Shown one piece after another: positions 20,300 to 22,198 of a stretch of 64,000 nt of DNA. Numbering within the stretch: the first letter of the stretch is position 1; each line of letters begins with the position of its first letter. Origin of the DNA: Polymorphobacter multimanifer (GTDB lineage: Bacteria > Pseudomonadota > Alphaproteobacteria > Sphingomonadales > Sphingomonadaceae); the NCBI RefSeq assembly GCF_014205635.1, contig NZ_JACIIV010000019.1, forward strand, positions 1 to 64,000, written 5' to 3'. The position numbers and the translations under genes are program-made. The notes under the pieces were generated by a model. The model searched no databases. It was not told the origin of the DNA and was given only the letters and a program-made list of their open reading frames with translations.

Positions 20300-22198
20300 T
20301 CAGGCGGGACCGCGACACATCAACTCCCAGATCATGGCGGGTTTGTCGATTGCGAGGCTCGTGCAGCGCTGTTCGGCAAGCTGTATCCTCGACAGGTTCA
20401 GCCATCGGCCGGTCGAGCCCCCCGCGATTTTCCCGGTGACGACCAGTTCGTCGGGATCGGAATCGGCATCAGGCAGCACGTCCTGGCCGCGGCCCAAACG
20501 ATTGGATGCGTCAGGGGTGCCGCCGGTCTGGACTGCAACGACCTTGAACGATAGCGGCCCGATGACGAGAGGCTTTGCCAATACGAGGCGGCGAACGGGT
20601 CTCCGCAGTCGATAGCCGAGTGTCTCCAGCCATGGCCGCCCTTCAAGGCGCCCGCCCAGGACCCTTGCCAGATCGGCTGCCAGCGATTTGGACACCAGAG
20701 GCAGCTGCCACCGCTTCTGCAGCCCGGCGTTGACTTCGAAGCGTGCAATGCCAGGCAGTTCAGTGGTGCCTCGCGCCGACTTGGGACGAGGCAAGGACAG
20801 CTTCAGTCGCACCGGTCGCGCGTCGGGTTCCTCTGGCGACAGGCGAAGGCGCAGCCGGTCGTGCGGGAGCGAGCTCAGCTCGATACTGCCGCTGAACTGT
20901 TCCTGATTATATCCCCCGAGCCATATGATGTTTGTGGCTGCAGCGCGCTCCATTGCAACGACCGTTTCGCGGGCAACGTTCGTTTCGGTAATCTTGCGGC
21001 CTCCATAGGTGATTGCCGACTGCTGCGCTCGTCCTCCCAGCTCGAGGCGCATAGCCGCAACCTCGTTCAACAGAATGCCCGGAAGATCGCCAGTGTTCAG
21101 CGCCAGCTCGACAGGTATCCCAGCGATTGTGACATGCACTGACTGATCGACTTGCAGATTAATGAAGCCATCGGGCGCCATTGCCGGCCCGGGGACCCCA
21201 GGCAGGGGGACCGCAGCAAGCCCTTCAAGTTGGTGGGTGGCGACAAGCGTTTGCGACGAGTTGCTCGGACTGGCCTCCGCAGGGGCGCTCGCCGCGCCCG
21301 CGACCTTGGCGTGTGAGAGCGATCCGGGTCCTGTGCAGTGAAGTGCCATGGACATCTGCTGCTTGTCGACAACGAGGGAGCTGCAACCCTGCTCATCGAA
21401 CTGGGTGCGCGACAAGGTCAGCACGACGAGCGGCTTGCCCCGGGGCTTGGGCCCGGAGCGTCGAGCCTGGGCGGCGTCGAAACGCGCGGCGAGCGCGCCG
21501 AACGACAGGCGGCCGAGTTGCAATGGCGTATCCAGCACCAGGCGACGCACGGTGTGGCGCACGCCGGGCATGACCACCACGTCCCAGGGTTCGCCTTCGA
21601 AGCGTCCCTGCATGACTGACGCGAGGTCGAAGCCCGTAGTGGATGCGATGAGGGGCACCGATGTCCTGATCGATGGGTTCAACGTGACAGCAAGCTGTGC
21701 GTCCGCCACGTTGACGAGGCCATAGGCAGTGCTGTCGACATCGCCGGCCAGTGGCATGCGCAGTGCCAGCGGCGCGCCGGGGCTTCCGGTCTGAAGCCTG
21801 ACGAGCTGATGCGGTACCGCCATGATGCCGATGCTGCCGTCGAGCGGCCGAACCGATTGCCCCGGAAACCAGTACAATTGCTGTTCGCGTCGCAAGCCGG
21901 CGATCTCGAGCATCGCGCCGCTGCGTTTGCCGTCAACTTTGGACTTGCTGTCGAGAAACATGTCAGCCTTGCGACTGCTGCCAAGCAGCGGTCCAAGGCG
22001 CTGCACGAGCGGGTCGTTCAGAATGAGGTGGTCGACGGTGCCGACTACAAATGCGAGGCTTGCAGGCTGACCGGCGATCGTGACCTGCAATGGCTCATCG
22101 AGCATGATCTCGAGTGCCGGCGGCTCCAGGGCATTTGCTCCGGCAGTATCCGTGCCGTGCCACAGCAGGAACAGTATCAGAAGGCGGGTGAAGACCAT
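20300..22198 (-). CDS. Secreted protein with two degenerate aspartyl-protease-like repeats
   Basis: I do not recognise a named family. After a signal peptide (about residues 1-23) the 632-residue protein consists of two similar halves. Each begins with V-T-I-A-G-x-P-x-x-L-A, has a long beta-rich middle, and ends in L-x-L-S-R-x-Q-x-x-E-Q-x-C-x-S-L-x-(V/I)-D-K...C. The position of a retropepsin DTG reads VGT in the first half and NTG in the second, so catalytic Asp is missing from both. Two cysteines close each half and could form a disulfide. A TonB-box-like string DELVVTGK lies at about 583-590. Composition is less GC-rich than its neighbours. It is convergent with the L,D-transpeptidase gene. 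A binding or structural role in the periplasm is more likely than proteolysis, but that is inference. Confidence 0.75.
   Translation of the reverse strand: MVFTRLLILFLLWHGTDTAGANALEPPALEIMLDEPLQVTIAGQPASLAFVVGTVDHLILNDPLVQRLGPLLGSSRKADMFLDSKSKVDGKRSGAMLEIAGLRREQQLYWFPGQSVRPLDGSIGIMAVPHQLVRLQTGSPGAPLALRMPLAGDVDSTAYGLVNVADAQLAVTLNPSIRTSVPLIASTTGFDLASVMQGRFEGEPWDVVVMPGVRHTVRRLVLDTPLQLGRLSFGALAARFDAAQARRSGPKPRGKPLVVLTLSRTQFDEQGCSSLVVDKQQMSMALHCTGPGSLSHAKVAGAASAPAEASPSNSSQTLVATHQLEGLAAVPLPGVPGPAMAPDGFINLQVDQSVHVTIAGIPVELALNTGDLPGILLNEVAAMRLELGGRAQQSAITYGGRKITETNVARETVVAMERAAATNIIWLGGYNQEQFSGSIELSSLPHDRLRLRLSPEEPDARPVRLKLSLPRPKSARGTTELPGIARFEVNAGLQKRWQLPLVSKSLAADLARVLGGRLEGRPWLETLGYRLRRPVRRLVLAKPLVIGPLSFKVVAVQTGGTPDASNRLGRGQDVLPDADSDPDELVVTGKIAGGSTGRWLNLSRIQLAEQRCTSLAIDKPAMIWELMCRGPA

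Follow-up and report, generated by a model that had tools for sequence, protein, structure and literature searches.

The protein encoded at positions 20300..22198 is very probably a tandem of two bilobal aspartic-protease-like folds, four lobes in a single chain, that is no longer catalytic. The gene lies on the minus strand of the window, as the whole stretch of 64,000 nucleotides of Polymorphobacter multimanifer DNA analysed here is called, and all window features given below lie on that strand. It is an open reading frame of 632 aa with an ATG start and no internal stop, and chance is excluded for its product because homologues are present in many other genomes. The N-terminus carries a hydrophobic stretch and an A-x-A-like site. 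A home-made hydrophobicity and A-x-A rule (not SignalP) places a probable signal peptide at about aa 1-22 (22133..22198, boundary estimated), and the protein is probably exported. Unit 1, the N-terminal half, occupies 21329..22144 (profile E 1.8e-86, fold matches within residues 24-291). An inter-unit linker of about aa 291-334 (21197..21328), with pLDDT below 50 at aa 292-336, leads to unit 2, the C-terminal half, at 20309..21196 (E 4.4e-103, unit model and fold searches). Both E values refer to a profile that contains the two window units as rows. Each unit shows the features by which the unit family is defined here: a length of about 300 aa, a C-terminal cysteine pair and no paired D-[ST]-G. 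The pairs are Cys272 (21383..21385) and Cys288 (21335..21337) in unit 1, and Cys612 (20363..20365) and Cys628 (20315..20317) in unit 2. Both cysteines are present in 100 of 102 related units, a set obtained from 110 matched units by dropping eight that were short or duplicate; three near-duplicate pairs (>97% identity) were kept.

The two halves are homologous. They align with 30% identity (87/288 columns, E 5e-22), which bears out the tandem duplication within one chain that had been proposed from the sequence at the outset. The motifs on which that proposal relied are also in place. V-T-I-A-G begins at aa 39 and again at aa 356, and L-S-R-x-Q begins at aa 262 and aa 602, followed each time by C...D-K...C, in which the cysteines are those named above.

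Structure prediction, fold search and profile comparison agree on an aspartic-protease-like fold, apparently with two lobes in each half. The AlphaFold2 model of unit 2, with 17 aligned units as input, has a mean pLDDT of 82.6 and a pTM of 0.79; the full-length model is weaker (pLDDT 70.7, pTM 0.47). In the Foldseek search, unit 2 is matched best by tethered two-lobe HIV-1 protease dimers (E 9.6e-7); a putative endopeptidase of Bacteroides fragilis and renin (renin E 1.8e-5) come next. These two-lobe matches have low TM-scores (about 0.33-0.42 relative to query length, rmsd 8-13), so the lobes match known structures better than their mutual packing does; the packing either differs from that in known enzymes or is poorly predicted. 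VIA comparison matches unit 2 to the B. fragilis structure 9iy9 (Z 12.0, rmsd 4.5, 223 residues), renin 2bkt (Z 11.5, rmsd 4.7, 227 residues) and Bla g 2 (Z 11.2). Lobe 1 of unit 2 on its own matches Ddi1 domains with Z 11.1 and an rmsd of 1.8 over 84 residues. The first half, taken within residues 24-291 of the full-length model, matches progastricsin (Z 12.5, rmsd 4.7, 219 residues) and renin (Z 12.5, rmsd 4.4, 222 residues). A comparison of profiles gives the same picture: the 102 units align with 19 intact bilobal proteins at E 1.6e-10 (probability 96.9) over 241 columns that cover both lobes. With the 25 units of a smaller set (A1) in place of the 102, the values are E 1e-5 and probability 82. 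The profile comparison of lobe 1 with lobe 2 of the unit is unconvincing (probability 4.4), and the two-lobe assignment therefore draws its support from the predicted structures and from the match to intact bilobal proteins. When the Protein Data Bank is searched by sequence with the 25-unit profile the matches are weak, the best being HIV-2 protease at E 0.43 with unrelated chains intermixed.

The original prediction had each half as one lobe, so that the two together would mimic a single pepsin. The halves are indeed homologous and in tandem, and a lobe-like motif stands near the start of each, as a pair of single retropepsin lobes packed into one pseudo-pepsin would require. Each half alone, however, spans whole two-lobe enzymes in the structure comparison and both lobes of the intact bilobal proteins by profile; a half is thus best taken as bilobal and the chain as four-lobed. 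Stand-alone single-unit proteins also exist, most of them in open frames of 310-380 aa. The one-lobe reading is hardly credible on this evidence, and the tandem of two complete bilobal units is retained. By prediction, each half has the two-lobe beta fold in one chain that characterizes pepsin family A1, with the low whole-unit TM-scores noted above. Neither predicted unit is the single-lobe chain, acting as a homodimer, that characterizes retropepsin family A2.

The catalytic motif is missing throughout the window protein. No D-[ST]-G stands at the aligned sites of any of the four lobes, which departs from the pepsin A1 pattern, and the lobe-1 sites read V-V-G and N-T-G, which departs from the retropepsin A2 pattern. 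In unit 1, V51-V52-G53 (22040..22048) replaces D-T-G in lobe 1, and N174-P-S (21671..21679) is aligned to the second catalytic Asp in the HMM alignment, in an approximate register. In unit 2, N368-T369-G370 (21089..21097) replaces D-T-G in lobe 1, where the paralogue of the window protein retains D-T-G. The strand-loop of lobe 2 of this unit, V-N-A-G with its neighbours (20717..20731), has no D-[ST]-G nearby; its register is N-A-G or G-L-Q, the MAFFT and HMM alignments being two residues apart. Val, Asn and Asn thus occupy three of the four aligned catalytic sites. The replacements had originally been read as VGT and NTG. The second of these holds, and the first is corrected to V-V-G. A uniform change of all four Asp to Asn was considered and set aside, given the Val in lobe 1 of unit 1 and the differing MAFFT and HMM registers in lobe 2 of unit 2.

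Loss of the motif extends across the family. Of 102 units, a single one, unit 2 of the paralogue (L002), has D-[ST]-G at the lobe-1 site; no unit has it at the lobe-2 site or close by. Elsewhere, away from both sites, it is found in nine further units. Taking Asp alone, the HMM alignment places it at lobe 1 in 23/102 units, at lobe 2 in 13/102 and at both in 0/102. The MAFFT alignment places Asp at both sites in one unit, unit 2 of L002, which then reads D-T-G and D-A-A; in the HMM alignment its lobe 2 reads A-I-Q, and the lobe-2 register of this unit, like that of unit 2 of the window protein, is uncertain by two residues. Homology to the intact bilobal proteins, together with D-T-G at the same site of the paralogue, supports the view that catalytic Asp was once present and then lost, as had been suspected for the window protein. 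Since Asp survives scattered over lobe-1 and lobe-2 sites, it was probably ancestral and eroded unevenly across units.

Some members could nevertheless be cryptic proteases. The paralogue L002, with its D-T-G, or a single-unit protein of the same genome (L003, G000:C2:104039), for example, would then hydrolyse peptides by means of an unusual dyad, the window copy being dead or altered. In L003, lobe 1 reads D-P-G and a D-T-S is found in the vicinity of the lobe-2 site; its gene is followed by one for an M16 peptidase. The MAFFT reading of unit 2 of L002 and the lobe-1 Asp of the 23 units point the same way, and, according to the accessible part of the source, HAP is proteolytically active though one of its two Asp is missing (PMC11313796). 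Against this stand the residues of the window protein itself, the lack of any unit with Asp at both sites in the HMM alignment, and the A-I-Q that this alignment gives for L002. Residual activity of this kind is considered very unlikely, and a non-catalytic fold is preferred for the window protein.

No named family was recognized in the protein originally, and the databases agree. Pfam yields nothing for it at E up to 10, and NCBIfam returns no family at E up to 1 for the window protein, its second unit or the paralogue. Related units match aspartic-protease models weakly. In the set of 25 units, 11 match PF13650 (Asp_protease_2) at E up to 1 (best 5e-5) and seven match PF13975 (best 2.6e-4); L003 scores 19.1 bits against PF13650, below the cut-off of 24.3. 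The best aspartic-protease model in NCBIfam for the 25 units is TIGR02281, with two members and E 0.031. The own genome encodes the full-length paralogue, 67% identical, and weaker single-unit relatives. Among 24 genomes of the genus, 13 match the window protein, the own genome included, so that relatives are present in 12 others. The 25-unit profile matches 68/298 genomes of the same bacterial family, 16/196 of an order sample (one of them, a partial match, outside that bacterial family) and 1/289 of a class sample, namely the own genome. These counts are lower bounds, since the initial scan scores no more than a part of the candidates in each genome. Within the genomes searched, the unit family is almost confined to one alphaproteobacterial family. 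The ten named contigs that carry relatives comprise two of Sandarakinorhabdus, the rest being labelled Sphingomonadales or Alphaproteobacteria bacterium. One relative, the L072 protein on the S. cyanobacteriorum contig, has exactly the same sequence as the protein found in G001, which belongs to the genus of the window. Two others, L006 and L012, appear single or partial because their contigs stop there. A first scan of contigs with the window protein as query yielded no relative, and a plasmid collection searched with a related unit yielded no match. The literature searched, which lies largely outside subscription journals, contained no description of the unit family in the parts available. 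As far as these searches show, the unit family, the near-complete loss of its catalytic motif and the four-lobe tandem are new, and the fold is known.

Despite the loss of its motif, the protein is under constraint. Window gene and paralogue differ by dN 0.24 and dS 0.78 over 631 codons, and the resulting dN/dS of about 0.31 indicates purifying selection. For six further pairs the ratio lies at about 0.21 to 0.51. All are simple Nei-Gojobori estimates that leave codon bias out of the model. The history of the tandem was followed in a tree of 39 units picked from the 102, in which the C units of two-unit proteins group together (support 96/93) and the N units group weakly (83/42). Because the C-unit group is supported, a single internal duplication before the genus radiated is the probable course of events; the tree fits it without proving it. 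A second tree of 77 rows, which leaves aside other two-unit proteins and two fragmentary matches, places the four units of window protein and paralogue together (SH-aLRT 95), which does not tell the two possible histories apart.

Where the constraint falls bears on function. In 12-column windows over the 102 units, the cysteine hairpin lies at percentile 100, the first psi motif at 95 and an R-P-V-R strand at 93; the old catalytic loops 1 and 2 lie at 47 and 21, and the flap at 46. In 17 units of the wider clade of the window gene the ranking is unchanged, with 66 for loop 1, 17 for loop 2, 99 for the psi motif, 94 for R-P-V-R and 95 for the cysteine hairpin. Six N-type units of the genus deviate: loop 1 climbs to percentile 83 there and R-P-V-R drops to 33, which means that the proposed surface is not uniformly conserved. 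An inactive protease could have turned receptor, with a peptide or other ligand bound in the old catalytic cleft. The predicted fold is kept; Bla g 2, which is termed an inactive aspartic protease in the accessible part of PMC9541408, is among the structural neighbours; and the N-type units of the genus do conserve loop 1. Across the 102 units, however, both loops and the flap are of average conservation or lower. The overall pattern favours a kept scaffold with a binding surface off the old active site, and the cleft receptor appears unlikely.

The surroundings of the gene differ from member to member. In the window, the gene is faced on one side by a convergent gene for a YkuD_2 L,D-transpeptidase; upstream of it lie GST and uvrC genes. 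The convergent gene in four relatives from the genus, recognized by eye, is presumably mutS. No genomic partner common to window, paralogue and genus relatives was found, and two-unit genes have no shared same-strand peptidase neighbour. Separately, an HtrA-like trypsin/PDZ protease gene (L002:4018-4902) is convergent on the paralogue at a distance of about 616 bases. The first 2000 positions of the window have a G+C content of 0.495, compared with 0.61-0.70 in its remaining 2-kb blocks.

Among single-unit members, peptidase genes recur downstream in two clades, one linked to S41 and the other to tldD. Neighbours were compared at 74 loci, which represent 77 of 92 profile match rows; the 15 omitted include fragments, short contigs and other two-unit genes. 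Downstream and on the same strand, an S41 peptidase gene follows at 18/74 loci (L188, L195, L197, L198, L204-L206, L219, L221, L228, L231, L233, L235, L238-L241 and L246) and a tldD metallopeptidase gene at 12/74 (L189, L192, L193, L200-L203, L209-L211, L214 and L253). Their identity was established by Pfam on one representative each; that of S41 (L050:297-1442) matches Peptidase_S41, Tricorn_C1 and PDZ. The gap is below 120 bases in 25 of these 30 cases (S41 17/18, tldD 8/12). The other five measure about 438, 451, 493, 616 and 1482 bases, and the longest, at L253 in the own genome, holds another predicted ORF. The remaining members have unrelated, different or convergent neighbours, as judged by eye. 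In another group of single-unit members, L074-L076 (L254 being the same gene as L076), lobe 1 reads A-T-G and a glycerophosphodiester phosphodiesterase gene follows.

Such linkage raises the possibility that the units are regulatory or chaperone-like partners of envelope peptidases such as S41 and TldD, the two-unit version of the genus serving another client. The frequency of the two neighbours and the short gaps speak for a partnership. On the 77-row tree, however, S41 and TldD linkage each require one change among the linked rows; with the 47 unlinked rows included, nine changes are required for the three labels (S41, TldD, other). The 30 linked loci accordingly go back to two events in evolution, with some change afterwards. 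The tldD gene may be adjacent by coincidence, the other members show no such pattern, and the window gene itself lacks a peptidase gene of this kind. As an account of the window protein, the partnership is judged rather unlikely. A broader version, in which the whole-pepsin pseudoproteases of this bacterial family of proteins are non-catalytic partners of envelope peptidases (S41, TldD or others) and the four-lobe form of the genus could bridge two clients or peptidases, is a conjecture judged distinctly unlikely. Partnership aside, the unit family as read here would be a sizeable bacterial one that keeps complete pepsin folds under selection without their catalytic motifs. Its erosion would run in steps from relatives with intact motifs to copies that are wholly dead, with a four-lobe tandem form besides, and would offer a natural series for asking why a protease fold persists once catalysis is gone. 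The peptidase-linked clades would make the partner hypothesis directly testable.

A periplasmic or surface protein with a binding or scaffold role is the tentatively favoured function of the window protein. The history and mechanism proposed have six parts. (i) Intact bilobal proteases of retropepsin type, present in the same bacterial family, are probably either the source of the unit or derived with it from one ancestor. (ii) Both catalytic Asp-Thr/Ser-Gly motifs of the pair have probably eroded in this lineage. (iii) The predicted fold, the psi motif and the C-terminal cysteine hairpin have probably stayed under purifying selection. (iv) The two-unit version would have arisen when the unit was duplicated internally, probably ahead of the radiation of the genus. 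(v) The protein may be a scaffold or adaptor in the periplasm or at the surface that binds a partner protein or peptide, and would do so more likely via conserved surfaces (the cysteine hairpin and the R-P-V-R strand) than via the old catalytic site. (vi) Some single-unit relatives may cooperate with the S41 or TldD peptidase encoded downstream.

The systems compared include the intact bilobal proteins of retropepsin type that occur in the same bacterial family. Like the unit, they have two lobes in the same order, and the profile match at E 1.6e-10 extends over both. They were selected for D-[ST]-G in both lobes: of 20 loci fetched, 19 encoded both motifs within one frame (20 ORFs in all), and L127, which is cut short, was omitted. 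One intact bilobal relative lies in the own genome (G000:C11:65708-66415) and has two PF13650 Asp_protease_2 matches. Unlike window-type units, 14 of the 19 lack cysteine in the compared part. Pepsin family A1, which has bacterial members according to the accessible part of PMC2761423, is resembled by each predicted half in its bilobal fold (renin and progastricsin, Z up to 12.5). The window protein differs from it in lacking paired D-[ST]-G, in an identity of 3-14% in the rows shown, and in carrying two folds per chain. Among retropepsins, Ddi1 domains resemble lobe 1 of unit 2, and tethered HIV-1 protease dimers resemble the whole unit. Retropepsins act as homodimers, as stated in the accessible part of PMC12239564, whereas the window units have two fused lobes without D-T-G. 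The same part of that source describes secreted retropepsin-like proteins of Pseudomonas aeruginosa, which are exported and bear retropepsin hallmarks. Compared by description, they are presented there as enzymes (PMC12239564), unlike the window protein in its non-catalytic reading. The remaining comparison is with pepsin folds that have lost catalysis. Bla g 2, wheat xylanase inhibitor, basic 7S globulin and EDGP are eukaryotic, and each consists of one bilobal unit. The last three have the pepsin fold and are inactive through loss of a catalytic Asp (PMC11313796, accessible part), so that non-catalytic pepsin folds are already known in animals and plants, as far as the accessible text of PMC11313796 and PMC9541408 extends. 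Within that scope, these inactive plant and animal pepsin-like proteins are the nearest in kind to the window protein, which is likened to them by fold and not by sequence.
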